From: Polytrichum commune
Taxonomy: Eukaryota; Streptophyta; Polytrichopsida; Polytrichales; Polytrichaceae
Length of the DNA: 64,000 nucleotides
Reading direction: 5' to 3'
NCBI GenBank assembly: GCA_950295325.1
Contig: OX485803.1
Location: 19,902,001 to 19,966,000 of the forward strand
Position 1 is the stretch's first letter, and every line of letters starts with the position of its first letter. A model generated the notes under the pieces. That model saw only the letters and a program-made list of their open reading frames with translations, was not told where the DNA came from and made no database searches. Of this stretch, positions 2,006-64,000 are shown piece after piece. A program made the translations under genes and the position numbers.

Positions 2006-2218
2006 GGAACTTTTTGGGCATAATCGGTTGAGATCCTAGTATTTGCAAGTCCAACTAATTACATGTTGATATCTTCCAGTTTTCCTTTATCAAATTGGGG
2101 TATATTATATAAATTGCTCTAAAATGATCGGCAATTTTCCTGAAGTCTTGAACTTCAACCGGTTATTTCTCAAACTCAACCGGTTCATCTGGAACTAACT
2201 GCCGGTTCTCCCCGATCA
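1998..2218 (+). promoter_or_regulatory. Cluster of AACCGGTT and TGATCGG motifs
   Basis: Two perfect palindromes AACCGGTT sit at 2157-2164 and 2178-2185, 21 bp apart, and a third half-matching CCGGTT lies at 2202-2207. TGATCGG occurs near 1999 and 2124 on the plus strand and near 2211-2217 on the minus strand. The cluster is 190-400 bp upstream of a TATA-like box. The motifs are seen directly; a role as transcription-factor sites is inference. Confidence 0.35.
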
Positions 2219-2407
2219 TAGGAATCATCGCATGTGACACTAAATACCATTATCAGTGAAATGTGCAGACAACCGTGTACAGATACTTAGGTTCGATACT
2301 GACACGTACTGTGAGGAAGGTACCTGGGAAGACATGGAAGCGCAGACTTGACCGCGGGATCGAGTTTGAATTATTTAAGGCCACAAGTGCTGCACAGTGC
2401 ACACTAG

Positions 2408-2415
2408 TATAAATA
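2408..2415 (+). promoter_or_regulatory. TATA-like box of the lipase-GTPase gene
   Basis: TATAAATA on the plus strand, followed by AC-rich sequence of the kind found at plant transcription starts. It would place the transcript start near 2440, about 500 bp before the chosen ATG. The leader would include the sequence shared with positions 1-66. Confidence 0.4.
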
Positions 2416-2588
2416 GCAAAGATGTTCCCAATCAATCAAATGCACTTCCTCAAATACAATCAAGATGATTGATGCGATTTGCAACAAATACAGACAGCTG
2501 TGTGCAGACAATTAGGTTATGTCCAGCCATGGGGGCAGGGCAGGGCGGGTGTGCAATGTGTAAGTTATTTGAGGCCACGCCGTGACAG

Positions 2589-2957
2589 AAGTGTAGCCTT
2601 GATCGGACACAATTTTAGCTGAACTTTCTTCTCCGACGACGTTGTGCGGCCGTGACTTGAAGGGAGCCTGGGTGGCGAAGACGATCGCTTCTATCTGCTG
2701 TGCTTGTGCGGAACCTCTGTGCTGGTCTCAGAGTTGTCGGTAAGTCGACCGAGGCTTCCATAGTAAAGTAATCTAAGCATGCATGGTTTTATCCGTGGTT
2801 TCCGATGCATATAAGTGCTGATTGGTACACTCAAAGCCGGTCCATCGACTGATGATCATCAATGTGTGCATGCCACGGTTGATGACGTTCTGCAGCTCCA
2901 AGCGGGAATGTATTGCTGCTGCCGACTTTCACTTCGATAAGCAAGTGGACAGATTCT
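2589..2957 (+). other. Putative 5' untranslated region with a leader intron and a uORF
   Basis: GTAAGT at about 2740 and TTCTGCAG ending at 2894 would delimit a 154-bp leader intron. The segment before that donor is open in one frame back to a TGA near its start but has no ATG, so it is treated as non-coding. Just before the main ATG, an ATG at 2908 opens a ten-codon uORF ending in TAA at 2940. The first in-frame ATG for the lipase frame is at 2958. The frame is open upstream to a TGA at 2883, so extra N-terminal residues from an upstream exon cannot be excluded. Confidence 0.4.
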
Positions 2958-5900
2958 ATGGATTCCAGACGTCCGCAAATAAAGGACCTGGCACGAGCAT
3001 ATTTTTGCTCGGAGGCAGTTCTTTTTGAAAAGAATGAAGAGATTAAGGAGTATCTGAATGAGACCAAGTCGGAATTCCCAATCATCCATTTTGATGTTGT
3101 TCATGTATCAGTTGATCAGGACAATGATCTGCGCGGCTTCAAATTTTTGGTTGCTTACGCCGCTGATGCTACTTTCATTGCATTTCGCGGATCTCGGACT
3201 TTTGAAGACTTAGGCCGGGAGAGTCAGCCGTCGTCCTCTGCCAGTGGGGTTCATGGGGTGGTTCTGGAGCTTTCCCGCAGCTTCATGGGATCTGGTTGCA
3301 ACTTGCTCGCTCAATTGTCCAAATCGGAAAAGCGCATCATCTTTTGCGGGCACAGATTAGGGGGCTCAGTGGCGCACATGGTGGTGGTTCGCTTCTTCAC
3401 GGATTTTGAAGACAAAGTGGTGAGCCTTTTGTGGCGAATTTCCATTTTTATCCTTTTGTTTTGCTTGCTTTATCTTCGTTAGCTTCAGTGTTGTGCTACT
3501 TACAATAACGACTGATGTAATTTTTCGACGATTCTGATATTTTCGTTCTGGTCGATAAACACTTTGAAGTTTGCTACTTCCTCTTTCTAGGTTCATTGCT
3601 AGGTTTCTTATTTCATCTTTCTAGGTTAATTTTGAATTACCTTGGCCGACTTTCTGAACTGGAGCATCCAATTTAACGCCTCAGAGATGCAGTCATGTCG
3701 TTCCTATTTTTCAACATAAGAGGATGGCGCCTTTAGTTCTGGTCGTGAAGCCCTACTCCGTTTTGCTCATTCGTCGATGTTCGCATAAAATTCTGGATGC
3801 TCTCCATGCGTTTATATTGCTATCATCGAATATGAAAAGACTTAGAGCCTACGCTTTCAAATCTTAAGTTCTCCTATACCTATTTGGCCACATAATCCCT
3901 GAAATTAGTATAGCTGCTCAGATTTGAGACTGTCCAAAACTGCGCTACTTGTTCTTCCTCGGTACTTCGCTGAGGATGCCATGTGATCGATACTGATACC
4001 TCAACGCATTAATTTGCGATTTTTCCTTTAATTTGCAGGAGGACCTGGACCCTAACACAATGATCTCGATTGCATTCGGCGCCCCCAACATATGCGGTAA
4101 CAAGCGCGCTCAAGAAATCAATAACAATGCTCATCTCAAGGTGCACCTCTTCAACGTGACTGATGAATCCGATCCCGTGGCTTCCCTGCAAGATGAATTT
4201 GAAGGGCACGAGGTGAAGGGGGATACTGCAGTTCGATCTGGCAGGTTTCCTATAGGAATTATGGTACCACTGCGAAGCGGGTATCACCAGTCTCGTTCGA
4301 GTTCCGTTATGGGCTCATGTGTTCCAGGGAAAATCAAGCCCTGGAGCCGGAAGAAGTTTAGCAAATCTTACAAATCAGCAGTGATTGCTGCGTATAAGTC
4401 CTCCGCCATGTCCAGCGATGAAGACGATGACTCTCCAAAGACGAAGGTCGAATCACCAGCTCCAGATGTAACGTGGCCTTCCCCCTCTGCTTGTCTGCTG
4501 GAGCCTGGTCTTGTTTGTTAACAATATCACTTTACATACTAAAGTAGACATATGTGATGTTCTTCGGATGCTTTCTCTCTGTGCCAGCTTCTTGTAGGAC
4601 ATCAAGAACACAGTGAGTGGAAGATGATTGGCAAATCCTAATCTGCATGCCCGTAGTCATTTAACTCAAAAATTTTAGAGTTCATATGAGTATCTTATTG
4701 ATTGTCAATGTGAAGATTCTCGTGGTCATTAAGTGGTCATATAGATTTTTTCAATCATGTTGACTATTGAGCTTAGAATGGTTAGCATATGTTGAGCATG
4801 TAGTTGAATTTCTTCTAGACAAATGTCTTTTTGGTGTCAAGTTTTTGATCCACACCTAACCACAAATCGTTCAAATATATAGGTGTCCATAATATTATTG
4901 TGGTGTTGGAAATAGGCACGTCAATTTTTTGCCCCTCATAAAATTGAGTTGTGAATTTTCCATTTCAATGACCAGTTAGCAAACTTGTTTAATATTTTCT
5001 TTTCGCTAGCATATATTTGCTAGCAAGTGGCTAAAGGCGAAGACCATAATTTGTACATGAATTGGCCTTCATGCACAATTTTTTTGATTCAACAAAGAAA
5101 CCTAACAATCAAATTATACCTTTTAGAAAATACTTTGCAAAGGTGTTAAGGGTGAGTTTCCATGTAGGCCACTTGCCCACTAGATTTTAGTATGAATAAC
5201 GAACAACTTGCCCAAATATAGATGGAATTTGGTGGGGTAGGATTTTGTATGTCCCAACTAGCTACTCTCATCTTCTCAATGTGGGCCCACCTACTATTAA
5301 CCTCTTCCTTTTAGGTTAACAAGGATGGACTTCTAGACCATCGGTCTTTCAAACTTTGGTGATCAACACTTGTAAGTCAAAGAGTGCTTTAGTGGGCTCA
5401 TGGAATTCTAGCAGCCCATGTCTAGTAGGCCACCAAAATGTGGTTGGTTAGTGGGTTGTGCTTATCTACATGAGACCACCTCCCACCCACTATTATCTAG
5501 AATCTAGTGGACGAGCGACCTACGTGGAAACTCACTCTAAGAGACCCCATGATCTTAGACATGCTGAGTATTTATTCTGGATAAGAATTTTTGTTTTAAA
5601 ATTAAATTGTTTCAAAGTATACCAAGAAAATCGTTCCGTATGAAGGTTTTCTTGACATGAGGTGCTGTTGATGTTTATCTTTCCAGGTCTTGTCTGCAAA
5701 ATGGAAGGCATCAGATTTCAAAATTTTCATCACCATCAAGGGATTTAATCTGCAGTATCTACGTGAGCCTGTGAAATTGGATGGATTGCATCCGTGGGAT
5801 ACCATACTACAGACAGATTCTGAACTTGTTATTACTGCTCCTGACAACACTAAAGCAGAGGATATTAAGGCGGTGTCCATGGTCATCGTCAAAACTGCAT

Positions 5901-8900
5901 TTGGGGCAACAACACGAGTTCTTCAACAGGTAAGTCCTGTTTGTGCCATGTGTTTCTTCACAAGTGTGAACAGAATTGATCTGGAATTAGCAAGTTTTGA
6001 ATCACTTAATATGTGTATAGGCACATGCATGTGAAATATGAATAGAAAAGTTGTATTTTCCATGTACAAATCTAAACCAACAAACTTGGCTAGCGATTTG
6101 TGGCGAGCATGTACGGGGTCTAGCAAAAACCTCCCCTTTATAAGTTTCATCCCAACTTAGTGTCACTAGACTAATTTGGGTTCTTTGATATTGACTTTGA
6201 GGTCAAATCAATTCAAAGTATAAAACTAGACTCAAGTTTTATTAGAGACTCATGTTCACCTTCATCTTTCATGGTCGCCACAAATCCATGCATGGCCAAC
6301 AAACTTACATGTGTGCATGCATGTATGTTATACATACGTTGATATTATAATAGTCTTAGACAAAGATCTAGACTATTCCCCAACATTTAAAGGACTGGCT
6401 CATATTACACCAAATTGTTCCATATTCTACAAAAGAAAAATATATACGTATTCTCAAAGAGTGAATGAAATGTACTTAATAATGTGACAAGTTTGATTAG
6501 AAGTAAAATAAGTGAGGCAAATATAGATCATTAGTTTAAATAATAAATATTTTTATTACTTATTATTTAATAGTTGTTTTGACATCAAAAACGAAGGACA
6601 AATATGACAAGACAAAAGGTGCTCTAACCTCTTTGAAGAACTATAGAATGTAATGAGAAAAAGTAGACAAATTGTGCAAAATATTGCATACAAAGGGAAG
6701 AAAACAACTTAGTTTTTAGTTTCAAAAGTAAAAATATTTTTATTGAATACGTGTTTTCTATTCCAACCAAATAAAATCTATGTCCCCTTTTTAGCACGAC
6801 TTCCAAGTGGAAGTGGTCAGTGAGCAATGAGATTTACTAAGAGCATTAAGTTTTTCTGCACATCTTTACACATCACACTACTAGTAGTTGACATTTATAT
6901 ACCTATTATATGTCAATTTTATATCAATTAAGCTATTTTGTGACAATGAACCCGAATGATCAACCATCGAATGTGCACCAATATTAATTTTCGAGAACGT
7001 TTTTATGATATCAATCATTTTTATACCAATTACATGTGTAGGACATTGGTGAAGATACTACGAACATTCCTTTGAAAGTGTTGCCTAGAATTGTGCAAAC
7101 TTTCTTTGTCTTGGCCAGGCCACCTTTGTCCTTTCTTCCATCAACAAAGACACTTGAGGATTTGGATAGCATCATACAATGTAAGCTTCTACTACACTCA
7201 TTATTTGCAAGAATTTGGATTTCCAATTCATACTAGACTTACTATTGGTATGAAGATTTTTATTATTATAGATTGGTCTTATTTTCTATGCCGTACTACA
7301 TTGACAGAAAGGTCATACATTAGTAGTTGAAGAACCTCAACTCACCCTTGGAAAAGAAAACATTTGTATACGCAAAATAATTGTACTTCAACACATGTGG
7401 TAACATGTCAATATATTGTATGAACCGAGATTGATAGTGTGGTATTATATGTTGCCTCCTTCTTTAATAGATTTGACAATGTTTGGGATACCTTGCAACA
7501 TTCTTTAACAAGTCTAATCAACTTAATAACATCTTAAGGACAACTGTATACAATATTAAGGCGATTTAAATCACATGCATATTGCAGCCAAATGTTAACC
7601 CTTATTTTACAAACTTCGTATGCCATTGCCATGAGTAGATTGTAATTAATTGGATTAATAGCTTTGTTATGACGTTGATATGCATCAGGTGTACCGGACC
7701 TAGAGGATAAAAAACTCTCTGAACTGTTGAGAGCCACAACAAAATTTGATGTTACTAAAGAAGACCTCAAAATATATACCAAAGAAATGAACGATGTTAT
7801 TGACTCAGTGATTGAGTTCCTAAGGAGAAGGTTAGGTCTACTTCATTGACATGTGGTACAAATTTTCCTATATGTATATGTTACATGGAGCTTTATAGTA
7901 AGTACTTGAGTTTTCATTAATAACGTTGTTCTTGAAGCAAACATTAGAGATTGACTAGAAATGCCTGAAATTTGCTTTAGGTCGTATGACATGTTCATAA
8001 CATAATACTTGCACATTGAATTAACCCAAATGGTCCAATGTGATCTTCCTCAAGAAATCTATGCAAGAAAAAAGTTAAAATAAATTCTTCGTCATTGAAT
8101 TAATGAGGTAAAAGTTGTATTGTTGCAACTTGTTCCATACTAGCCTTGTTTATGAGGTCCTAGAATCTAGAATTGCTTAGACCTTTGTGTGTGGCTTGTG
8201 GAGACCTAATCATGTATCTTGCACAACCTTCCTCAAGACCGGTTAACCCCTACTTGCATGGGAGCAATCATATGTGGTCATCCATTTGAAGGGAATGGGT
8301 CTCACATGCCTTTAAAGGGGATGACACTTCCCCAAAGTTTCGGGGGAAGTTCTTGACCCATGGAACTCTCTAGCTTCTTTAATACAATTTTAAAAAACGA
8401 GGTTACAGTTCTAGAGAGCTCAATATTCACATGCACATGCTTTCAACTGGTGTCAACTAAATTAATAGTTGATTTGTATGTCCGTTGCTACCATTATAAT
8501 AGTACTAAAACCTTTTTGTTTGCGTTTGTAGTTACATTCTACAATTCTTAAAAAAAGACCAAATAGTAAGAATCTTTGGATGTGTAGCGGGGTGTGCCTT
8601 GTTGGCCGCGGGTGTTGTTTTGCTACCACTTGGAGGAATAGCCTTAGCTATAGGTGGCGCAGTCGCCATTGCAGCCTCTGTGACTGTCGGCGGCGTCTTA
8701 AGTGTTGGCGGTGGTGGGGGTATCATCATGCTTGTTCTTGGTAAAGGACAACACATGGTTCGTGAGTACACTGAGATGCTGGAACTTGCAATCTATGAGG
8801 CATCTCTTTGGTCTACTAAGAAGTCCAAAAACATTCAAAAGCCTAAATTGTTACCAGAGGGTCCTCCAGATCGCAAGCTTACAACGACAGAATTAGAATC

Positions 8901-11273
8901 ATTGCTTCATGAAAAAGGTAGACATGCCCAAACTCAGAATTTATTATACCTCAATGCTTTTGTTTTATTTATTTATTTTCATTATCTTTCCTTCCTTCCT
9001 TCCAGGCACACTGAATCAATACAATTCTAGGCAAATAACTTCAAATTCCATCATATCCCAATCCCATTGAGCATTACTGTACATGATGTCATACATCTTC
9101 CTCAAGTAGCATGTTATTTTCAGCGTAAAGCCTTGCCACATTTCTCTTTGAAATCGGTGGGCTTCTTACATGCTGTAGTTACCCTAGGGGATTTTGGCAG
9201 GATGTATAGCACCATCTGAGCCGTCCATCTCATCTAAATCTAGAGGTTGAAATCTAAGCAAGGGCTTACTCTAAGTAAAGCCCTCAGGCTGTGGCCTTCT
9301 GTAAATACGGGCCAACCCTCGGGTGGGCCCTTCTCCATGGAAAGCCCCATCCCTAGAGCCTTACTTAATTACTTTCTAGATGTTTCAAAGAAATCGGTAA
9401 ACAGTGCGTCCACTTTGCATGTGTCGATCTGCATATAGCTTCGCATATATATAAGTATGAGTAAATAATTCCATGACTGACTGTTTCTCTTGTAATTTGC
9501 TCTTTTGCTGATTTTATGATCAGCAAGTACAAATTGAATGCTCACACTTTTTTAGATTGTGAGTTTAAGTGATGCGCCTTTCTCACCTATTGATAAACCT
9601 GCACCTGTAATTCAGTTGAACGCAGTGGGAGCCATTTGGAGCGCATGATTGAGGAGATTCACAAACCTGGGAAAACAAATATTGAACTCAGCTCTGAAGC
9701 AATGCAAGCAGCAAGCGTAGAATCCAAACACAATTTGGTACGAAGGATGCACATCGTGGCTAAGACAGTTGCCATGTACAACAAGGAAGTTAAGAGCACT
9801 GAGTTTCTGGGAATTGTCGGGGCGGAGGACTCTGGGAAATCAACCTTTATCACGGTTGGATAAACCACTCCTTTCAATAGCTGGCATTCTCAGATTGTTT
9901 TTCTCCTTCTCTACATTATGTCATAAACTGAACTGTTGGTTTATCTATGTCTTTTTCTGTAGTTTAAAGATTGATGTTTGTTGTACAGAAAGCCATCAGA
10001 AGATTTGGAGAGAACCCTTCTGGAGACGTGCCTGAAGTAGGAATTAAGTGTCACACCACGACTGTAAGGCCGTACAAGCTCAAAGGTAGCTTGTATCTGG
10101 TGGATTTTCCAGGCAGCGATGGAACAGAGAATTATGCAAAAGCTTGGAAGCAATTCACATCGGTTCCCAGTTCATGTATCCTGCTTCTTGAATTTAAGGT
10201 ATGTTTACCCCAGGGTGGCAACTTTTCCTTTTAGAACAGTTGTTCCTAATCACTTCTAAAACCTCTAAGGAACTGATGATTTGTTTGTCTACCAAGACTG
10301 ACGAGAAACATGCTTGGAAAGAGCGCATTGAGAAAAATCCATTGATGAAATTTGTGTTTGAATTAGAAAAGGTTTGCCCTTTCCAATGTTATTTTTAGAA
10401 AAAATTGGATGCAATTGTTCTAAATCAGGGTCACCATCCAGAACCCTAGTTTCTTATTTTCACTTCTAAGAAAAAATTTACATTTTTAGAATCTACAGTC
10501 CTAAGAATGCTTAGACTACAAAAGTAGCTCCCAAATCATGCTTCTTAGAAATGGTTTAGCAGCTCCAAGAATGTTTACAGAACCTGTGAGTCCGAACAAT
10601 GGCACCAGGGAAAGATGTTTTAAAGGAGAAAAAACCAAAACACTGAGTTCCGAGTGTTCAAGAAGCTCAAATGCTTTCTAGAAGTTAACCTAAAACCATC
10701 TGTGGTTCAAAACCGATCATATGGGTCTGCATCTACTGCCCTCAACTATGTCCATCATGATATATTCTAGAGCTGTGTATACGAGTGGTTTTATAACCCA
10801 CTCAAAATTTGGCCAGTGTAGAGTGAAAACTTCTGCAATGCCATCTCCTCTGAGAATAACCTTTCAATACCTAGGTAGCATGCGCTTCCACCAACAAGTT
10901 TCGTGACCAATATCCTCGCATTGTCATTCAGGGTGACATTAAGAAGGATCAGATGAAGATGTACAAGAAGAAGAAAAAAGACCTTGATTCTAAGGTCGCA
11001 GTTGTGTTCAACAAAGTGGATTTGCTGTTCTCAAACTCGGAAGAAGACAAATTTGATGCGGATTATTTCAAGGTCCACAGGGTAAGAACTGCTGATAAGC
11101 TTGGTTGCAATAGCGAGGATGTGCATTATGTTTGTTTGGACCCCAGGAACAAGCAGACACTCACCGAGTTGCAGAAGTTGGGTGTGCTTGATTTTGAAGG
11201 GCTTGCAAAGAAAATAGGAGGTTGGTTGGCAATGCACTCCGCCTCAGGGTCACATCACATTCTGATGGAGTAA
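2958..11273 (+). CDS. Class-3 lipase-like / P-loop GTPase fusion protein, 9 exons, 863 aa
   Basis: The exons are 2958-3419, 4039-4467, 5687-5929, 7042-7180, 7689-7830, 8532-8917, 9616-9854, 9989-10198 and 10932-11273. Every junction is GT..AG, the phases agree, and the coding total is 2592 bases. Residues 1-297 form a class-3 lipase-like alpha/beta hydrolase with FIAFRGS at the oxyanion strand, GHRLGG at 131-136 and DESDPV in exon 2. Arg133 replaces the catalytic Ser. Residues 298-378 look like an IPT/TIG-type beta domain. Residues 379-471 are helical linker. Residues 486-541 are a Gly/Ala/Val-rich hydrophobic hairpin that probably enters a membrane. Residues 600-863 are a GTPase with P-loop GAEDSGKST (669-677), DFPG (719-722) and NKVD (777-780). 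Its style resembles large membrane-acting GTPases such as the dynamin or IRG types, but I cannot assign a family. The biochemical role is unknown; GTP-dependent membrane or lipid work is inference. Confidence 0.85.
4672..4905 (+). repeat. Dispersed repeat E, copy 1 (intron 2 of the fusion gene)
   Basis: Matches 42955-43180 in the same orientation and 16935-17170 in reverse. The shared order of blocks is CTCATATGAATATCTT-like, GTGAAGATTCT, GTTGACTATTG, AATGGTTAGCAT, GCATGTAGT and ATATAGGTGTCC. It is non-coding as far as can be seen. Two of the three copies sit in introns. Confidence 0.65.
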
Positions 11274-11580
11274 TTGAAAGATTAACCCCGTTAACCCTGA
11301 AGCGCAGTACAAAAACATGTATTTGACTTGCACACTCCCATTTGTACTTATTATGTCAAAAGTGACTATCTAAAATGAACTACTTCTTAAAGTTGTGTTT
11401 TTTTAATGTTAATTGGTTGAAGAAAAATTAACGCCCGTACTTTTATACAGGCATGAATGTGAGCCCATTAGCCTTGTATTGATCACGGTGTTCTGTGATG
11501 CATTATAAGGTGATTTGCCTCCGTGGGGAGGTGGGCTCTGGTGTAACATTAAGTATATCTAACCTTATTAAGGCGGGGAG
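11274..11580. other. 3' flank of the fusion gene
   Basis: AT-rich sequence following the TAA stop. No canonical AATAAA is seen. Nothing else is recognised before the retroelement fragment. Confidence 0.4.
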
Positions 11581-15367: not shown

Positions 15368-18300
15368 TTACTCAAATTTCATGACAAGGTGGTGAAGGAA
15401 GATGCAGAGTTCCGCACGAGCAAGGTCCATTCCTGGGCAGAGCCGTGCACCACCACCAAAGCCGAAGAAAGGCGCCTTGGACCCGTTTGCATCCTGTGCC
15501 ATACATGGAAAAATTGGTTCCAATCGAGAGTTTTAACATGCAGAAAAACAAATAATTAATTCTTTATATATATATATATATATAACCCACCGATTATTGA
15601 GAGAGTGGCAACCCTCTAGACCAATTCTCATGTTCAAGAGCTGAGGTTCAAAGGACTCTGAAGGGTCGTCTCGCTCTCAATAGTCAATGGTTGGTAAAGT
15701 TTTATAATACCTATATCTATTTGGACTTTGTTTGTGAGACAAGCGTGTGCCATTGCCCCAAAAAGCTTTGAAAGCCGCTTATTGAGAGAATCATTTTGAG
15801 GAGTATTGAGGGGGAGTAAATCATTGCACCTGGTATCGGAAGGGGTTGAATGTGTATGGATCAGGATATATTTCCGGATTGAAGTGAACTGCACGGAAGT
15901 AGGGTAGAACAGCCCAGCCTTTGGGAATCGTATGCTCTGCCCAAAGAAAAGACAAATAACGTTTAGGCTTCAATGTGAAATCGATAGATAAATTCATCAA
16001 CATGCTCAAATGGAATGATCTTATTTTCTTTGAAATCTATGGTGGCCACAATTTCTCCTGCCTGGAAGTAGCAGACAACGAAGAATATACCAATGTTGGG
16101 CCAGAATATAGGTGAATGCATGGGTTCAACATTCAATATCAATGATGGTGTTAAAGATCATACCTGGCGTATCAAAATTGTAATATCAGTCAAATATTGC
16201 TATTTGGCGGTTATGTAAAGGTGAGAGAATCTTGGTATAACCGAGTTATTATTTGGGTCAACACCATTCTACACCATATTGATACTAGGGTGATATTGCC
16301 TAGGTATGAAGGTTCTTGCATATAGACCAGAACAGTATTGAAAACACAAATGCTGTCAAATACCCATACCGTACTGGTATCAGAAAAGGTGAAATTCTTA
16401 TAATAGATACCCAAATGGGTATAAAGAAGAAGACGATACCAGGCAACACTGGAATTTACCTCCAACGTGGACATCCTCGAGTGACTTGCGGAACACAGTG
16501 GTGGAAATGTTGCACATCCGCAATGTCTCTGTGATGATCTGAAAGCACACACACAAAAACTATTGGATGAGTTTCATCCATCAACCATACTAAGTTCCAG
16601 AACATTCCAACATTCGGGTCAGGGTAGTGTTATATACTCAGGAGCTACATAAGGTAGACATGCATAATTCCAACATAGCAATAATCTAGGGGGATTGTTA
16701 AATTGACCACAGAGTTTCTTAAAATTACTGAAGAGATGTGTCGAGCAGGTCACGTGACCTAGCAAAACTTGATTTTTCATCACACATATGAAGAGGAGTA
16801 AGGTATCAGGCTCTGCTTCCTCTTTCTTTACATCGTAACTTACAACTAGAATTGTTCAAATTTTGATATGTCATGTGACCGCACAACACATCTTTGTGGT
16901 GGTTTTAACCAATGCGTGGTCAACTTAACAATCCCCTAATCTGGACACCTATATGCTTATGTGAGTGGTATGTGGTTTAGGTGTGGCTCCAAGGATTCTA
17001 TACAAAAATGAAAGGAAAAAAAGAGGTGTGTCTAAAAGAAATTGGACTACATGCACAAATTATGATAACCATTATAGGTTCAGTGGTCAACATGACTAAG
17101 GTGACCTATATGACCATTCAATGAGCATGAGAATCTTCACTTTGATAATGATAAGATATTTATATGAGCGTACATAGATCGTTTCTGAGGCTCGAATAAA
17201 CAAACAAACAAACAAGAAAAAGAATTGCACCGATTCGGTCACGTGAGGAGATTATTATCTTGGATGTCAGTGCGTGAAGATATCACCGACTCTGAATTTT
17301 TTTAAATTGGAAGGGAATTATGGACAAGACTTCCTCACATCATTTGAGAAGGGCATGAGCTTGCAGTCATTCCATGTGATTCGTTCCCCAGGTTGTTTCC
17401 GCTGCAAAAAATCCTCGTGCTCTCTCTACAGTTGCAACAACCACAAATGACAGTCACTTAATCAAGAGTATTTACATGAACAGAGTCTTAGATTCTCTGA
17501 TGATTCGTGTTCCTAATTTTCAGATTGTCAGTGATGGTAGTGATCCATGAAATGGTTGGGATCGATGTGTACATTAGCAAATATGAGCAAGAAAACTGTG
17601 TCATGAATAAGTGGATTCAATTTGAGGCATCTGAAGACTTACACGAAGCTCAGCGAGCACTTTGGGATTTTCTCCAATGTATTTCACAGCGAAGACCATG
17701 GTGGCAGCAGTGGTGTCGTGGCCAGCGAAGATCAAGCTTGTGAGAAGATCGATGGCCATGTCGCACTTCTGCCCTCGCGGTGTGTCTTCGGGCAACTCTG
17801 CCTCGAGAAGATCCAGGTATTGATCGTAAATGTCGTCTTTCACCGGCCTTGAATCCAAAAAGTCCTTTAAATTCTTCAAGATCCGCTTACGCGCCTGGAG
17901 AAACACCACAATGAGTACTCCTGATGATGAATTGATTGTAATCACCTCCAATCCAAAATTACGAAGACTAATTTTGATGTTAATTATGCTAGATGTTACT
18001 ACTCCGATGCCATTAATACTTAACGTACTTACCCGGAAAGCCTTCCCATAAATCGTCCATGGCAGGTTAATAGGGAGAGAGAACATTCCCTCGATGAGAG
18101 GGTAATAGTCCCGCTGGAGCTCCTCGCTCACAGGCCCCGGCTTGATGTTCAGGACGATCAATGCTGTGATGTTGAATGCAATCTGTAAAATACACATTCA
18201 CATTTCATGTTTCTTTATATTGTACCACACGAGGTCATTTGACAGACTTTCTTTCTTTGTTTCTTCTATCCTAATCACCGACAAGGAAAACATCCAAAAT

Positions 18301-21300
18301 TATCCAGGCCACCATCAGATATTCAGCTAAGCACTTTACAAAAAGTCCCATGAACAGATGGCTGAGTTTGCATTTTCAAGTTCCAAACATTGAAACACAA
18401 GCAAGCAGGGCTAACAAACAAAGCTACACTGATATCGACAACGGTAGCTGCATGATATTGCATCTAACCGGGAGATAAGTTCCGTTTAAGGAACATTATC
18501 CTGAACTATTGACTTTTTTGGTTGCGATAAATACTGTTGGATTCTAATTCAAAGTAGAGAAAGAAGAAACATCTTGACCATATACTCCAAGATCTGACAA
18601 GGCATTCAATGTAGACTGCCTTTTAAGATACTATACTCTTGGACACATAGAATTGAACTTATTGGTCCAGATTCAGTCCAAGCGGAACTCAGATGATCCT
18701 GAAGCATTTTAATATTCTAATGTTGGACGATGATTCTGGAATTATTATATTCTGAGCTTAAAACCGGTAAAATACATCAGTGACGGCAATTTGAGAGTAT
18801 TTGTAATTACATCTCAAAATGGAAATGGCCAGCGTTTAACTATGTTACAGAGTCAGTGTCATGATAAACATTAGCTTCAGGGTTTAGCAATATCATTACA
18901 GTGCCGATTCGACATTTAGCTAATGCTTAATCCAACAATGATTCAACTCACATGTCAACATCCTTTTAGAATCTTGCAAATACTAATTATAGAACATTTA
19001 AAGGTTCAATGCTTACGGTTTTGGTGTCGTCCTCAACGAAGATTGTTCGGCCGTCGTCAGCCCAGGTGTCGAGGGTTTTGACCACCAAATCCTCGATGTC
19101 ATTCATCTTTTCCTTAAGGAGGTCCACCCGCATGATGTTGGCCACCACAAACTTCCGGAGGCGCTTCCAATTTTCTCCCTTCAGATTCAAGCCATTGAAT
19201 CGGCCTAACAGCATTGCGAAGCTGGTAGGATAGTCCGACACGAACGACCGCCCTTCCTTGGCCACAATCATCTTCACCGTCTCCACCTCCGTTGCGAACA
19301 CCGTGGGCTTGAAGAACAGCGACGACTTGAACAGTTGCCCATACCTGCATCATGATTTGCACTAGACAAATTGGTTGGATTTGACAAGCTTAGCTTTCCT
19401 TCATCCAAAGCTCATACTACTGATTTTGATTGAGAGCTTCATCAATGCTCTTGAAAGAAAGATCTCAGTAGTTTGAGAAAGTGAATTCTAGTGGCCATAC
19501 TCAAAGTGAGCTCTGAAAGGGGGGAATATACTATGACCCTTTTAGACTATAATAATGGTCTTGAGTTGAGAGCTTGAACTTGCAATTTTTGGAGGTTTAA
19601 TGCTCATATTTGATGACCTCGAACTTTGAGAGGCATGCAAGATCATCCTCTTGAAAGCTCTCAAAGGTTTGGGTCTCGAAGTGGATTGGCCATGATCAAA
19701 GTGCGGTTCGGAAGGGGAAATGTACTAAGGCCTCTGTTTACACTAGAGCTTGAGTTTGAGAGCTTGAACTTGCGAATCTCAGGGAAATTGAGCAACTGTA
19801 AATTGGCCATGGCACTGCTCCAACTGTGGCGTCAAGGACAAATGGTACTAAAGAAATGAGAATTCATTCATAACAAGTCAAAGAATCCTCGAAAAAGCCA
19901 ATTAGTTTGGAGCCCACACACAAGAGCAGCTCGAACTCACAACATTCCTAAGAGACCTACATGAAGTAGGGACTTAGGATTTTGACCGAGAGCCTCGGAA
20001 CATGGGAATCTAAGCACTGTAAGCTTGCAGAAAGTTGAAGCTCTCAAGTTGAAAGCTGAAGTATAAAGTGGACTTGGGTGAACTCAGGCATGCCTAAAAG
20101 GCTAAGGCTCCTTTCCTCGGGCCCTCAACCTTCGAGCTTTCAACTCTCTAACTTAGTGTCAAGGGGGGACTAAAACTGATGTTTGTACGAGGAGCCGTTT
20201 GTAGCGATTAGTCCAAGGAGCCGCCTTATTTAAAGACTTCAACGGGTTTCCAATTTCGCAACTTTGGGGGAATGGTGGTGGGTGCCCACAAAGGAAAACT
20301 GAAAGGATCGACTCAACAACGAGCAATATTCCACCCACCGACACTGACATTGAATCTTAAACTTGGAGTAGTCGGTGGAAGATGACGCGTGCACCAGGTC
20401 ATTACAATCCACGAGGAGGAACCCTTGCCGGATTTTTCGCCGACAGAAAACACTAATAAAAGAATGTAAAAAGAAGGTCGGTTCACCGTTGGATGGACTC
20501 GAGAACTTTAGTTTGTACAATCAACATGCAGTATCCGTGATTCATGGGCCCATGGGCTTGAGTTGTGTTCGGAAGGATTCCAGACTTGGAAACAAAACAC
20601 CAAATTCTACTATCCCAATCATCTACGCAATATAACCCTAACCTCAACCTCAACCACAATACCTCCATTTTGGGGGAGGGACATCCCCAGCTCAAAAACC
20701 TCCATAGAATTGAGGTTGGCGCCTCAGTAGCCCACTTTTGTCTCAATACATGACATTTCTGTAATATAAACTCTCAAAAAAATGAAGTGCCCCTGCATCC
20801 TCAACCAGTATCGTCATCTTATATTTGAGATTCTGAGGTTGGAGTTGAGATTGTGAGTGGCCAGCTTGCTCTAACAAGATTGTCAAAAGAAATCTGCAAA
20901 ACATCCGAAGATGGATGGAACCCAATGGGCAGGCGACAGAAATATGAGTAAGAAAATTAAGAAACTCCTAGAAGAATGTAACAGTTGTGTCATCCTTAGC
21001 TTCAACGAGCTTCTGTAGCTCATCACCCTCATAAGCTGCGTGCTGACCTGATCTTAGAACTCAAAATGTACGAGGTTGAAAGATTAAGGCATCGAAACAG
21101 ATAACGTATGCAAACCTGGCTCACTCCAGATTTCTGGGGAGTTTAGCGGGAGATATTAGATGCCTGCATTCAATGTGTTAGTTGCTACTACATTTTGGAG
21201 AGTTTCGGTAGAGGTCTAGAGTGGATTGACTTATAATTTTACCTTAAGGAGTGCTCATCCACAAAGTTTCCTAGGGGAGTTTTCATCTTGGCCACATAAG

Positions 21301-21481
21301 CCAGCGTCTCTCCGATGATAGGCAAGCCGAAGGTGCCTGGCAGCCTGCTCTCCCTATCTTGTTTCAAGCGATGCCATACCCACCATGCCACCATCGCCGC
21401 TACCAGCATCGGTATGGTGCTCATCATCCCCATTCCGCGATCCAATAGGGCCGTAGTTGTCTCCAATGCATTCAACTCCAT
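15368..21481 (-). CDS. Cytochrome P450, CYP85-clan type, 8 exons, 455 aa
   Basis: The exons, read on the minus strand, are 21481-21243, 19344-19017, 18182-18033, 17894-17643, 17425-17339, 16538-16460, 15936-15830 and 15493-15368. All junctions are GT..AG with matching phases, totalling 1368 bases. The protein has an N-terminal membrane anchor (about residues 20-38), [12 protein letters not shown], the I-helix AGHDTT (296-301), ETLR (356-359), FNPFRY (408-413) and the haem loop [12 protein letters not shown] with Cys433. P450s of this clan are ER-bound monooxygenases acting on sterols, brassinosteroids, gibberellin precursors or terpenoids; the substrate here is unknown. The protein ends KFE-stop, about 25-30 residues earlier than usual. 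GTAAGT overlaps this stop, so one more intron is possible. A candidate tiny exon at 15261-15246 would add only DWFVS. Confidence 0.88.
15566..15584. repeat. (TA)n microsatellite in P450 intron 7
   Basis: About nine TA units within the last intron of the P450 gene. Confidence 0.8.
16190..16446 (-). repeat. Transposon-like repeat in P450 intron 6
   Basis: The reverse complement matches 60270-60490. Shared blocks include GATACCAGTA-like, GGTATTTGA, TTTTCAATAC, AGAACCTTCATA, TAGGCAA, AGAATGGTGTTGACC and AAATAATAACTC. It ends only about 14 bp from the exon 6 donor site. No coding potential is seen. Confidence 0.6.
16935..17170 (-). repeat. Dispersed repeat E, copy 3 (P450 intron 5)
   Basis: Reverse-complement match to 4672-4905 and 42955-43180, including CCTTGGAGCCACACC and ATATAGGTGTCC blocks. 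Confidence 0.6.
19380..20170. repeat. Repeat-rich part of P450 intron 1
   Basis: GAGAGCTTGAACTTGC recurs at about 19571 and 19758. Inverted partners (AGCTTTCAACTCTC) occur near 20135. Phrases such as GTGAATTC/GTGGATTGGCCAT with TCAAAGTG and GGGGAA recur about 190 bp apart. This suggests a decayed transposon with subterminal repeats. No ends or target duplication could be fixed. Confidence 0.35.
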
Positions 21482-21485
21482 GTTG

Positions 21486-21490
<5 letters not shown>

Positions 21491-21533
<43 letters not shown>
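21491..21533 (-). repeat. (GA)n leader tract upstream of the P450 start codon
   Basis: About 21 CT units on the plus strand, which read (GA)n in the P450 messenger. The tract ends 9 nt before the ATG, so it lies in the 5' leader. GA tracts in plant leaders and promoters are known targets of BBR/BPC-type proteins; a function here is inference. Confidence 0.85.
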
Positions 21534-21537
<4 letters not shown>

Positions 21538-22360
21538 GCGCGCAGACCGAGTCTTCCTCAACTAGAGAGAGGCTCCAAGGGCTTCAACAAAACAGCCCCT
21601 TCAAAGAAATAACCTAGTGGTACAAAGACAATGTCTGTACCACTAATAAGCTTTGTAAGTTCGGAACTAGAGGCTGCTAGCTGACTCTCTTCCGGTGCCT
21701 TGGATCCCACTAGAAGCTTGATGAATGGTTTCAGTTGAGCTGCTGCAGTTGTTTGTATGCAACCAAGTATGACGTCTGTGATGACGGCTCTGACTCTGAC
21801 TCCGGGGAGGTCTGCACAAGTTCAAGCAAAGGAGCCAGGCTGCTGCTCTTAGTTAAACCGTAATGATATTAAATTGGAGTCCTCGACAAAGTTCCATACT
21901 TCCCCTGTGATCAGACATTGAACGAAAGACTAGTAGTGGTGGAGGAGATAGTAGTAAATAACTCCACATCGGCCCATGCCTCATACTGGATGCATGGTTT
22001 CCAAGTACATAGACTAATATATAGGAAGTTTGTCAGCTCACAGAACCTTCGAAACACAACACTTGTAGCTCCGAACCAACTTACCATGCAGCACAACCCA
22101 CATGCACCTACTGTTCCACCAACTGGAACTCTCCAACACAGTGACCTGCCGATGGTGATGCGTTAAAAACGCCGACTGCTATAACTCAACAACTTCCATA
22201 ACTACCACGAAAATAACTTCGAAGCTGCAGGGATTTTGTGTTAGCGGGGATGTTCTTCTCGAATGTCGATCAGCCGCCAAAGCACACAATTCCACTGTAG
22301 GGATAGTTGGTGACAGCTGCAGAAACTGTGGTGCTAATCATCAGAACGCAAGCTCAAAAC
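21534..22360. other. Upstream region of the P450 gene
   Basis: Moderate-GC sequence with no convincing exon. It is probably the 5' leader and proximal promoter of the P450 gene. No clear TATA box was placed. Confidence 0.3.
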
Positions 22361-36428: not shown

Positions 36429-38524
36429 TCATGTCGTTGGTCGGTAGTACTCCACTTGAATTTGTCGAAAATGAGGGTTGGAAGTTTCAAAATTTGGTTT
36501 GGACAAAGCTCTTGCCACCCACATTGGCTTTGCATATGTCTCATCTCCATGACGCAAAATGAGCATATATCCTTCATGACAATCCACTACAATGCGGAAA
36601 GATGGTGGGGAACGGTTACTAACAGACCCGACGTAATGGTCGTCCATATCAAACTCCTCATGAACCTCTCCATTTCCCAAAAGACTAGCTTTCCAAAGCT
36701 TATACATCGACACGTGTTTGTGGCCAAAATCCATGCTTCAAAGTAAGGGGGGTATCTTGACGAAGGTTTGCCAAGGTGGCACGAACACATGTCCAATATT
36801 GTATCCAACTCCCGTAACGATGCCAACATGACCCACCAACATCTTCAAACTTTCCCAATATTGTATGAAGCCTGAAATACCTCTTACAATATTCTCCAAA
36901 CATTTCATGGGTATTGGCTTGCAAGGCCTAGGCTCTCCATCCGGTAACATCGTCTTTCCATCCGCATCAACGCACCATACAAGGAGACCCTCCGGCGGGC
37001 TCCAGTATTGCATAGCGGGGACACCATCGCCCCGCATATAGAACCGGAATTGTTGTGCCTTCGTATGCCCGATCAATCGGTGAGCTTCACTTCAAATATA
37101 CGGTTCTATAAATGCCTTGAAGTCGGGCACCTCCTCGATGATATGGAGGATGACGGGTATGTTCTCCAAATCCACGTACGACTTCATCAACAATGGAATT
37201 GTTGGAAAATCCTCCTCTCGCAACTTCATGCTCCACCACCCAAAAGATGCATCAATATCATCGTGCGTGTGGCCTACCAAAAGAAAGGACACAAACACTT
37301 CTTTGAAAATGCCTTTCGCAACCAACAACGACCAATATGTAAAAACATATTTACTTTTATTGTTTTTGGCACAATTGTCGAATTGGACACATATAGTTGG
37401 GGGCAATTTCATGGCAAACACATGTTCACTAGGTGGCTCCGGCAACGAATGTAGGCATACGTCTTTTCCATCCAACACCGCCTCATATAGAGGTGTTGAC
37501 CCTGTGTTTTCAAATAACAATATTGAAGAATAGGACGGTGATTTCTTCAAATCACGTAAAAACCTTGCAAATGATCCTATTGTATGGTTTGAGTCCACCG
37601 GATACAAATCGAGAGCATAATGAGCAAACTTGACATCACCGTGTCCATGTGCAATCATTCCTGCAATGCCAACCCGAAGGATTAATATACATCTTTAAAT
37701 AATCCATTTTGTGTACATCTATACCCCATGTACAACACGTAAAACAAACAAAGTTGTGTTTAGGGTATGTGATGCAGTCGTTTCCAAATTCTTCTGTAAT
37801 TGATACATGTAGCTTAAAAAATTCATCCGTTGCTTTGATTCGATTTGCAAAACATGTTGATGTTGTTTTGACATGGTTCATTTTGTCATGGATGACTGTA
37901 AGGACTCAAAGGGCCTGAAAATGGACAAGGCTCTATTTGTGTAGTAATCATTACGGTGCGTCTTTTGCATGTTTACATGCTTGAAATAGTTCAATTGATG
38001 TGCTGCATAGGACTCAATACCCATCGTGTGTGCATTCCGAAGGCGCTTCAACCTCTCGCAATTGGGACACCGGGCAAATTTGTTGCCTCGTTTTTTATAA
38101 TGTATTCGCTAAAATTTGTTTTCTTGATCGCGCTCAATTTTGACAACGACATTGGCTCCAAACCGGCCTTCTCGCCAACTGCATTTACGTCCAACAATAT
38201 ATCTTTCCATTTTGTGCCTGTGGGAAGAACCTTCTCTACAACTTTTTCACCGGTTGCGAGTGTGTGTGTTTTGTGCGGCATTGCATCAGCAAGGGGGACA
38301 ATGATAGTCGCCATAGTGGCAGTTGCTTGCCTTGTGGCTTTCCTAGGTTTTTTCAAACCCATGTTCCCATGGTGACGCGACCGGCAGCCTTCCTTGGCAT
38401 ATGCGGCTTGTCTATAAAATTTTGCTTTGCACATACCGTGAATGATGTACCATGTCGTACAACACACGTCTATGGTTTCAAGGGTGATGGCCTTGCCACC
38501 CTGTGAGCCCAATTTCGTGCTCAC
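36429..38524 (-). pseudogene. Decayed DUF7869-type transposase-like gene
   Basis: Fragments read leftwards on the minus strand form one protein: 38524-38048 (RHHGNMGLKKPRKATRQ), a short piece with CPNCERLKRLRNAHTMGI at about 38075-37900, 37895-37636, 37658-37092, 37076-36738 and 36734-36429. The third-last piece has FDNCAKNNKSKYVF and SFLLVGHTHDDIDASFGWW. That is the D-N / GHTH-D-D signature I associate with DUF7869, an RNase-H-fold domain of plant and other eukaryotic mobile elements. The last piece resembles a C-terminal BAH-like module (DDHYVGSV ... PMWVARALS ... VEYYRP). At least three frameshifts separate the early pieces. Two in-frame TGA stops separate the last three. It is no longer functional in this copy. 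Confidence 0.6.
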
Positions 38525-61272: not shown

Positions 61273-64000
61273 TCATGAATGTACAACTAAGGTAGACATG
61301 CTTGGGTAGGACCGCATAGGTGACACCAGAACTGGTTGCACAGACTTAGTTCCCACAAATTGGTAAATATTACATCTTGCGGTCAACAAGGAGATCATCC
61401 TTTGTATATTTGGACTCATTATCTCCAAGAGTTTTATGAGAGAGAGGAAGATGACTCGGTAACCCACGGCCATGGTGAACAAAATAGCCAGGTTCCACCA
61501 CTTTGAGCGGCTCGTAGTTATTTGGTACATGTTGGTCATGATAGTTTCCCCTGATATCTCACCTGCACCTGGGGTTGCACCGCTGAAGGATGAACCGATG
61601 AAATCATTCTCATACATTCCCTATAATTTGCAAAAAGATTATATCAGATTAGAATACTCTCCCTGATCTTGGTACACTAAACATACTGAACATCTGAATT
61701 AGTGTGGCATACCCTATTCTTTATCAACAACCAAATCAAACACCAGTGACCATTCTCATACATTCCCTATAATTTGCAGAAAAAACTACTCCTACATTAG
61801 AACATTATACCTGATAGGTACACTAACACTGATATCTGTTCTAATGTGCCCGAACACTATTCATCAACAACCCAAAGTCTTGCAAATACCGGGTGGCAAC
61901 TAGTGAGGGTGTCACAAAGACCACTGTGATCAACATGGCACACCGATTTTATAGGCTGTCTTCCTAATTAGAGTGGTCATATTTAATTAACATCAGCTCT
62001 GTCTATCACAGTTCAACTTTGCTGAGATGACAATTAGGTGCTTCAAGCTCAAGCTTACCTGAAGAGCGTACATGTGGAAACCTATATACATCATAGGATA
62101 GCGCCAAATGACTTTTGGCAGATCATGGGGTAGTCGGAAGAAACCAGACACAAGTAAATATATTCCCTGCAATAAATCAGTCCAAATGTTAATGTGATCC
62201 AGCTTCAACAAGGAGCAACTTGAAACCAACCTAATATATTCAGATCAAGTAAGAAAGAAAAGAAGAGAAGCATTCATCGCTATCTATCACTGGAAGGTGT
62301 GGTATGATCTCTAGAATGTGAACGGGTTAATGTTTGCTCCACACCTGAATCCCAGCTCCTGTGATGATACCCATGAGGTAGTTTGGAACAAGTGCAGCGA
62401 CAGCCATCATCAAACTTTCGACAACAAGGAGGCACGCATAGAGTGACAACACAAAGTATATGAAACGCTCGATCCCTGGATGTAACCCAACCATGAAGTA
62501 GAAGATACTTGTTGACACCGAAGCAATGAGGAATAGGAATGGAATTGAGGACAGTGTGTTCCCAACCACAAAGGCGCCTACTCCATAGTGCCCATTCAAC
62601 CGCTCTCGTGTGAACACCTGTGTTGCATTCTCCACAATACGTACTTAGAATGGACCTTACGATGGACCACAAATTGATTTCTACTGTTGCAAATGGACTA
62701 AGGTATGCGTGTGTTGTTTGGTTACAGTTCTTAATCGGACACCTATATTTGAGTGGTGTGCGATTAGGTCAGGATCAAAGAACAAACACCATAAAGACAC
62801 ATGTTTGAAAGAGATTGACCTACGCCTTCAGATTCTATTAACAACTCCACACTCAATAGTGGACACAATTGGAGGAGGACCCATTTATTCAGTAAAGGTA
62901 TCAAGAAACATGCTCTTCCGATAACCATAACTAAATCAGGAGAGGTCTAATTTTCAATCTGATATTTGTTGATGCTTCATTGTGAATTTGCTAACGCAAT
63001 AAATTTTTTGTTGTGTGAATCTAACTGGCATAAGTTGGTGAACATGAAAAACGAACCGAATAACACCCACATACCTTAATTACCTATCTACAAACTGGTT
63101 GAGATAGAATATTCAACCTTGTGATGATTAATTTTGGCAAACCCTGATTTATTCACTCCTTGACATAAAATCGTAAATACCTTCATGTCCTCCACAAAGG
63201 AGGGAAATGCCCCAATAGACATGAATGTTAGAAATCCTGCAACATAGGATATGCAAGCTGCTCTGGCCTGCACCACAACGCATAGTTGGGTGAGTCATAT
63301 ACCAACATACCGCATTTCAAGAAACTTAATCTCCAAAAATTTCCATCAACAGGCAAACATTGTTGATCTATGTAAATGAGAACTGCGGCTCAATTAAGAA
63401 AAACTTATCCAATGAACTTGCAATGTGAGCGAGCGCTAACCATGATGGAGGTGTAAGAGTAGCCGACTTTGTAGTAGATAGTGCCAATGCACAGGGAGAG
63501 CCCTATATACATGGCTAGCCGTAGCCAGTAGTAGCCCACATCTCGTGACATATTCAGGAAGGATCGTCGTGTAAGGGTGTAGGATTGCATCCAGAATCCA
63601 GCTTGGCTACCTTTGGATTCCAATATAGATCCAGCCTGTTTGTGCCCATCAAATTAAGCACCAAACTTTAATTTTGAATTTAGCTCCACCACGTATATAT
63701 ACTCAGTGCCCACAATTGTTGTTTCGAAAATTAACTATTTTGATGCATGTTGCCACATGCAATTCCTCAGCGTGGGTAGGATAAGTCTAATTACCTAGGG
63801 CCTGACAAATCTGTCGTAGGCCTTTTTGCCATTTGATGACCCAAGGGGTTATCCTTGAAGAATGTAACGAAGCTTCTACTGACAAAAAGGGTTGAGGTGC
63901 TTACACGGTTAGAATATTCGTGAACTTTTGAGGAGGCCCACATGGCACCTTCAGAGCCTTCATAGGTGGAAATCAGTTTTTGAACAACTTCAGATGTGGG
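61273..64000 (-). CDS. ABCG11/WBC11-like half transporter, 3' six exons (partial)
   Basis: The exons, read on the minus strand, are 64000-63905 (enters from outside the window), 63635-63441, 63267-63181, 62617-62345, 62166-62059 and 61620-61273. They give 368 codons. All junctions are GT..AG and all internal exons are in phase 0. The visible part is the linker and the ABC2-type transmembrane domain, with hallmarks of plant ABCG11-group proteins: [17 protein letters not shown] across an exon junction, [46 protein letters not shown] and WRYPMMYI. About six membrane helices are evident. The nucleotide-binding domain lies beyond position 64000. Members of this group export cuticular wax and cutin precursors at the plasma membrane; that role is inferred from the family. 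The last exon ends in a divergent hydrophilic tail. Confidence 0.9.
61605..61830. repeat. Tandem duplication across the last ABCG acceptor site
   Basis: ATTCTCATACATTCCCTATAATTTGCA occurs at about 61605 and again at about 61750, with similar following sequence (TTAGAA.A.T..CCTGAT, GGTACACTAA). The second copy duplicates the start of the last exon with its 3' splice site inside the upstream intron. Confidence 0.65.
62755..63075 (+). repeat. Dispersed repeat K, copy 2 (ABCG intron)
   Basis: Partner of 47125-47420, lying in the 563-bp intron between the exons ending at 63181 and starting at 62617. Confidence 0.65.

Follow-up and report, generated by a model that had tools for sequence, protein, structure and literature searches.

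A lipase-like head, a hydrophobic hairpin and a GTPase domain predicted together in a small gene family of Polytrichum commune

The lipase-like heads of the plant proteins EDS1 and SAG101 serve as scaffolds, and SAG101 has lost its catalytic residues. According to PMC11218826, seed-free plants are reported to lack EDS1, and bryophytes encode hydrolase-NLRs (Hyd-NLR or HNL) in which an alpha/beta-hydrolase head is combined with a nucleotide-binding module. Here we consider a gene of Polytrichum commune that lies at the start of a 64,000-nucleotide stretch of DNA (the window; assembly GCA_950295325.1, contig OX485803.1, positions 19,902,001 to 19,966,000). As predicted from its sequence, the product of this single gene begins with a lipase-like head, continues through a small domain and a hydrophobic stretch, and ends in a GTPase. 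Literature searches aimed at the order lipase, hairpin, GTPase, partial in coverage, judged by their listings and with no eukaryotic proteome compared, returned no account of it, in agreement with an earlier sequence-only reading of the window that knew of no characterised plant protein so arranged.

Gene model and family in the genome

Splicing the raw sequence reproduces the nine exons that the sequence-only reading had joined in phase, giving 863 residues and a stop codon, and all eight introns are GT-AG. A protein-to-genome alignment over 2401-11500 gives identical exons; its query was the window protein itself, and it tests splice choice, not the protein. The reading frame 5′ of the start codon is open from 2886 and holds no earlier ATG. 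A Pfam scan of the protein finds Lipase_3 (E = 2.9e-8) and then the MMR_HSR1 GTPase (1.6e-6).

A search of the 408-Mb genome with the window protein gave exon-by-exon matches at five places and one fragment. The window lies in the contig designated C1, which also carries a near copy of the window gene (L002), a divergent minus-strand gene (L001, here C1minus) and a copy of C1minus adjoining the window gene (L003); the fifth place is on contig C7 (L004, here the C7 gene). The fragment, at C5:41177908-41178144, is from exon 1 alone and covers residues 50-128 at 92% identity. Genome searches with the C7 and C1minus proteins gave no further fused members at E up to 0.1. The family is small, with three divergent lineages and five copies, one of them broken: exon 1 of L003 carries an in-frame insertion of 6 bases and one more inserted base that throws it out of frame, whereas the reading frame of its twin L001 is intact. 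In each of two duplicated blocks the two gene types are arranged head to head, with about 5.6 kb between them.

The window protein is 96.2% identical to L002, 37.4% to C1minus and 42.1% to the C7 protein, and the last two are 35.0% identical to each other. Identity to these two paralogs is unevenly distributed, at 50-53% in the G domain, 37-39% in the head, 38-47% in the exon 3 domain and 19-28% in the hairpin. The intron phases are 0,0,0,1,2,1,0,0 in the window gene and in C1minus, and the C7 gene has the same series with one extra phase-2 intron. In the protein alignment, six of the eight introns of the window gene fall on exactly the same column in each of these paralogs; the remaining two, next to gaps, are off by 2 and 1 columns in C1minus and by 13 and 4 in C7. 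These comparisons are to be read with the fact that paralog splice sites were picked with the window protein as guide, partly manually, and that the C7 model depends on one GC splice donor, following exon 8. Same-strand blastn of the window gene (2401-11500) against the C7 locus places all eight matching pieces in exons, with edges at most 7 bases over. Against C1minus it gives nine pieces, six of them in exons (edges at most 11 bases over); of the other three, one lies ahead of the start codon, one is in intron 2 and one is a repeat-like stretch in intron 8.

That stretch in intron 8 of the window gene (10209-10566) recurs with 73% identity in intron 2 of C1minus, which suggests a repeat. A tenth in-phase exon at 10297-10371, adding 25 residues, is mechanically possible. 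It was set aside in favour of the nine-exon model because the repeat-like stretch encloses it and the C7 model contains nothing equivalent, an intron of just 255 bases occupying the corresponding position. The features of the window gene and the other family loci are collected in Table 1.

Table 1. Coordinates of the window gene, its predicted features and the related loci (window positions unless a contig is given)
Feature	Position	Strand	Description
Exon 1	2958..3419	+	residues 1-154: start codon and lipase-like head, first half; Pfam Lipase_3 at 74-204
Nucleophile elbow GHRLGG, Ser to Arg	3348..3365	+	sequence; aligned with C1minus GHSLGG
Exon 2	4039..4467	+	residues 155-297: head, second half; Asp aligned, His region gapped
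Exon 3	5687..5929	+	residues 298-378: small domain; strands (low-confidence model); without Pfam match; conserved in paralogs
Exon 4	7042..7180	+	linker
Exon 5	7689..7830	+	linker
Exon 6	8532..8917	+	hydrophobic Gly/Ala-rich hairpin, then better conserved segment (..EYTEMLELAIYEASLWS..)
Hydrophobic stretch, residues 482-542	8560..8742	+	Kyte-Doolittle, 19-residue mean at least 1.6
Exon 7	9616..9854	+	lead-in and P-loop
G1/P-loop GAEDSGKST, residues 669-677	9819..9845	+	sequence; invariant in three divergent members save one S/A
Exon 8	9989..10198	+	G3 part of predicted GTPase
G3 motif DFPG, residues 719-722	10103..10114	+	sequence; invariant
Repeat-like stretch in intron 8	10209..10566	.	recurs in intron 2 of C1minus; contains rejected exon 10297-10371
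Exon 9	10932..11273	+	G4 part of predicted GTPase, C terminus, stop
G4 motif NKVD, residues 777-780	11010..11021	+	sequence; invariant
Near copy of window gene (L002)	144.77 kb upstream of window gene		model of 863 residues
C1minus (L001)	C1:19748411-19754482	-	model of 948 residues
L003, C1minus copy adjoining window gene	C1:19893257-19899334	-	broken
C7 gene (L004)	on C7		model of 966 residues

Lipase-like head, hairpin and GTPase

The lipase fold proposed by the sequence-only reading is upheld as to the profile, Lipase_3 scoring 34.1 bits in the window protein against a cut-off of 22, but catalytic residues have been lost: the nucleophile Ser is Arg and the His region is missing. The window gene, L002 and C7 all have GHRLGG at the elbow, where C1minus has GHSLGG. 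An aspartate of the window gene aligns with the catalytic Asp, C7 has a gap at this column, C1minus has NDYVP, and the histidine pair of C1minus falls in an alignment gap of both the window gene and C7. All three residues of the Ser-Asp-His triad are thus kept in C1minus, and the window gene lacks the set. Lipase_3 reaches 69 bits (5.2e-19) in C1minus and 14 bits (0.049), below the cut-off, in C7. Because the Ser is replaced and the histidine region is gone, the head of the window protein is probably catalytically dead, a pseudo-lipase, and lipid hydrolysis by this protein is unlikely. Judged by the same residues, enzymatic activity is conceivable for C1minus and improbable for the products of the window gene and C7.

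The head has its best PDB matches among EDS1-type proteins. The window head alone finds EDS1 only at E = 0.052; the C1minus head alone ranks EDS1 (1.8e-6) ahead of an ordinary lipase (0.0033); and a three-sequence head profile finds EDS1 at 5.7e-5 and PAD4 at 9.3e-4 before the best ordinary lipase (6a0w) at 0.02. A reading of this likeness as special to the fusion was rejected, and what counts against it is a non-fused lipase of the same genome. This gene, L005 (2699-4831 at C4:23.95 Mb), encodes a class-3 lipase as one open frame of 710 residues, with a long tail and an intact GHSLGG; the 8 kb around it contain no detectable GTPase or hairpin of the family, and it likewise matches PAD4 (9.7e-13) and EDS1 (1.5e-11) ahead of an ordinary lipase (2.1e-9). 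Since a plain lipase also best matches PAD4 and EDS1, the EDS1 likeness is, on these searches, a property of this branch of plant lipases and not of the fusion. Another class-3 lipase, L006 (5412-6170 at C1:44.66 Mb), has a later long exon ending in SPKVEVCSATLNMKWFNQKEK, by eye like the start of exon 3 in the family; neither the family's GTPase nor its hairpin could be detected in the 16 kb around L006/L007.

The segments between head and GTPase are less readily placed. The beta domain of the sequence-only reading is retained as a small domain conserved in the paralogs, but its fold is in doubt: no Pfam family matches exon 3 at E up to 10 in any of the three divergent members (the window gene, C1minus and C7), a PDB profile search gives a best E of 0.019, which is unconvincing, and strands appear solely in an AlphaFold2 model of the single exon (strands and a helix, mean pLDDT 54.8). 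The Gly/Ala-rich hydrophobic stretch, in contrast, was recovered by hydropathy, which marks two overlapping segments over residues 482-542. The signal is positive in all four family models, with shorter stretches at the corresponding position in C1minus and C7. AlphaFold2 of exon 6 alone gives two long helices at a mean pLDDT of 61.0; this model, like that of exon 3, is of low confidence.

The GTPase and its three named motifs (GAEDSGKST, DFPG and NKVD) were found as described. MMR_HSR1 is above its cut-off in all three divergent members (28.6 bits against 21.9 in the window protein), G1, G3 and G4 are kept throughout, and we take VCLDP to be the G5 position in the window protein. TIGR00231 small_GTP is matched by all three, the window protein falling below the cut-off (27.8 of 42.5 bits). 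The closest PDB chains are scattered among CIN4 (9.6e-7), Grn1 (0.0012), EngB (0.049) and also Era, and for this reason no GTPase subfamily is claimed. Dynamin_N is weak and below its cut-off of 27 bits in the window protein (14 bits, E = 0.053) and in the two paralogs (15.2 and 13.1 bits, E = 0.023 and 0.096), and the IRG family is not among the Pfam families listed for the three members. The NCBIfam SA1320 family is matched by one of the three at 1.1e-5, and the PADLOC LeoBC model by two, at best 1.4e-5. When the hairpin is shuffled, four of six shuffles still match LeoBC (E = 0.0012-0.014; the unshuffled segment gives 0.00014), and neither of the hairpin segments of C7 and C1minus matches it alone. 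The LeoBC match is thus largely a matter of composition, and homology of the hairpin to bacterial Leo dynamins was rejected, though the shuffles match more weakly. A bacterial or viral source of the family was also rejected, if weakly: scans with two peptide patterns each gave 260 matches in GTDB genomes and 237 in IMG/VR, none of them a relative by tblastn.

Divergence since local duplication, and surroundings

The window gene and L002 are identical over about 6.5 kb (2012-8548, with one difference at 2011), and identity then drops sharply 17 bases into exon 6. An edge of this sharpness inside an exon points to gene conversion or recombination. Divergence is 10% in exon 6 (38 differences in 386), 4% in intron 6, 5% in intron 7, 8.5-10% in intron 8 depending on the alignment (61 of 715 or 73 of 723), and 1.4-1.8% in exons 7-9. 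These last exons have 13 differences in 791 bases, compared with 97 in 1,547 aligned bases of introns 6-8, and a ratio of nonsynonymous to synonymous rates (dN/dS) of 0.22 (7 synonymous and 6 nonsynonymous changes; Fisher p = 0.008, synonymous versus nonsynonymous). By this measure the GTPase exons of the pair have stayed constrained since duplication.

In each duplicate pair, no exon has diverged more than exon 6, which encodes the hairpin. For the window gene and L002 its dN/dS is 1.33 (30.5 nonsynonymous, 7.5 synonymous), and its nonsynonymous changes exceed the divergence of intron 6 (p = 0.0003); between C1minus and L003 it has 25 differences in 311, compared with 13 in 777 for exons 7-9 and 29 in 1,273 for introns 6-8. 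Positive selection on exon 6 is at most suggested by these figures, and the hairpin may be under weak sequence constraint, possibly diversifying. Several observations qualify these patterns. Within exon 6 the excess of dN over dS falls short of significance (Fisher p = 0.70), and synonymous changes there are likewise elevated relative to intron 6 (p = 0.07), so that the exon's divergence could reflect relaxed constraint or the survival of an older segment after gene conversion. Two introns are about as diverged as exon 6, namely intron 8 in the window pair (0.101) and intron 5 in the C1minus/L003 pair (0.079; 17 differences in 214). Finally, exons 7-9 of the C1minus/L003 pair, one member of which is broken, show no sign of constraint (2 synonymous and 11 nonsynonymous changes, dN/dS 1.47).

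Elsewhere in the window, all on the minus strand, are pieces of a cytochrome P450 gene at 17604-19349, possibly extending to 21583 (one above and one just below the Pfam cut-off; the frame 21242-21583 resembles a P450 N terminus by eye only), a DUF7869 match at 37095-37694 (E = 4.2e-37), which we presume is probably part of a transposable element, and a PDR_CDR match (CDR ABC transporter) at 61276-61620 (E = 6.7e-5), probably an ABC transporter exon. Unlike the family block, the P450 region (18-19.5 kb) has no duplicate in the genome, its sole full-length match being itself. As would be expected in a land plant, the genome gives 70 matches to GRAS and at least 126 to NB-ARC, and contigs of 78, 59 and 42 Mb in 408 Mb suggest about seven chromosomes.

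Possible mechanism and relation to known systems

The mechanism we consider most likely, with a confidence somewhat short of even, is a membrane-anchored GTP switch that carries a lipase-derived binding head. The hydrophobic hairpin would anchor the protein in the membrane, the GTPase would act as the switch between GTP-bound and GDP-bound states, and the head, probably catalytically dead here, would bind a lipid or protein partner, by analogy with the scaffold role of the EDS1 and SAG101 heads. GTP loading would then expose or cluster heads at the membrane. The sequence-only reading had proposed that GTP binding could be coupled to lipid recognition or to membrane remodelling. As a first guess the role could be in defence or membrane-stress signalling, because a variable hairpin accompanies a constrained GTPase, the head-to-head sister has an intact-looking triad and the block is locally duplicated; an immune role in particular is something we infer. 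Counting against it, among the NB-ARC matches listed (at least 126 in the genome, from 466 candidates) none lies near the cluster. A bolder version, which we regard as distinctly improbable, is a defence module of seed-free plants in which the paired head-to-head proteins contribute one active EDS1-type head and one dead head, are gated by their GTPases and insert into membranes through fast-diverging hairpins, amounting to an EDS1-like scaffold with a GTP switch in place of the EP domain.

Other readings assign the domains differently. In a dynamin- or IRG-like membrane-remodelling GTPase the protein would oligomerise on membranes with its hairpin inserted and the lipase head as a targeting module. 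The position of the hydrophobic stretch next to the GTPase, the weak Dynamin_N similarity and the LeoBC matches in two of three members are consistent with such a protein, which we nonetheless hold to be unlikely, if a serious candidate: Dynamin_N stays well under its cut-off (14 versus 27 bits), no IRG family is listed, and the LeoBC match survives shuffling of the hairpin and fails with both paralog hairpins. The head-to-head pairing in both duplicate blocks, together with the retained GHSLGG, NDYVP and histidine pair of C1minus and its strong Lipase_3 match, would also suit a family of lipid hydrolases regulated by GTP, with C1minus as the active enzyme and the window protein as its dead heterodimer partner. 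This arrangement is quite unlikely, as the C7 gene also has GHRLGG and is gapped at Asp and His, genome searches with family proteins found no second family match on C7, and the C1minus copy adjoining the window gene is frame-shifted in exon 1.

Two further readings concern the gene itself. Domain fusions are often prediction errors, and a lipase-like gene and a neighbouring GTPase gene might have been wrongly joined. Two separate genes are very unlikely, and we give this reading almost no credence, because divergent genes repeat the domain order and all eight intron phases and because DNA similarity to the C7 gene falls on exons. The phases run 1-2-1 across exons 4-7 alike at three divergent loci (with paralog models guided by the window protein), and the linker of residues 379-480 is itself 31-40% identical across the window gene and paralogs. 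The loss of catalytic residues from the head, the local duplication and the broken neighbour L003 would equally befit a decaying pseudogene with a chance open frame. That reading earns very little credence: 863 codons are open in both the window gene and L002, and exons 7-9 of this pair have been constrained since they duplicated.

Both domain families are ordinary, and their linkage by a hydrophobic hairpin in one plant protein is apparently undescribed in the literature searched. Plant class-3 (Lipase_3) lipases such as L005 share the head fold and nucleophile elbow with the window protein; L005 differs in its intact GHSLGG and in having no detectable GTPase or hairpin of the family in its 8 kb. 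The MMR_HSR1/TRAFAC GTPases Era, EngB and Grn1 have like G1, G3 and G4 motifs in like order, and the window GTPase is assigned to none of their subfamilies. Dynamin, IRG and bacterial Leo proteins also unite a GTPase and a hydrophobic hairpin in one protein, but the window protein falls short of their profiles. The family offers natural experiments in two respects: apparently active and dead lipase heads are carried on the same chassis, and recent duplicates pair a diverged hairpin with a constrained GTPase.

The closest parallels combine a hydrolase-type head with a partner module. In the Hyd-NLR/HNL proteins, as described in that source (PMC11218826), an alpha/beta-hydrolase head is joined to a nucleotide-binding module as in the window protein; there the module is NB-ARC with LRR, whereas here it is a GTPase, and neither NB-ARC nor LRR is listed in Pfam scans of the three divergent members at E up to 1. 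With EDS1, PAD4 and SAG101 the window protein has in common the Lipase_3-type head, for which EDS1 and PAD4 are the best PDB matches, and with SAG101 the loss of catalytic residues. They carry an EP domain where the window protein has a GTPase and a hydrophobic stretch; the EP domain (PF18117) is not among the Pfam families found at E up to 1 in the three members, and a search of the P. commune genome gave 0 matches, though control genomes gave none either. If it is true that seed-free plants use this family instead of EDS1-type hubs, it would be relevant to the question of how plant immunity came to employ lipase-like scaffolds.

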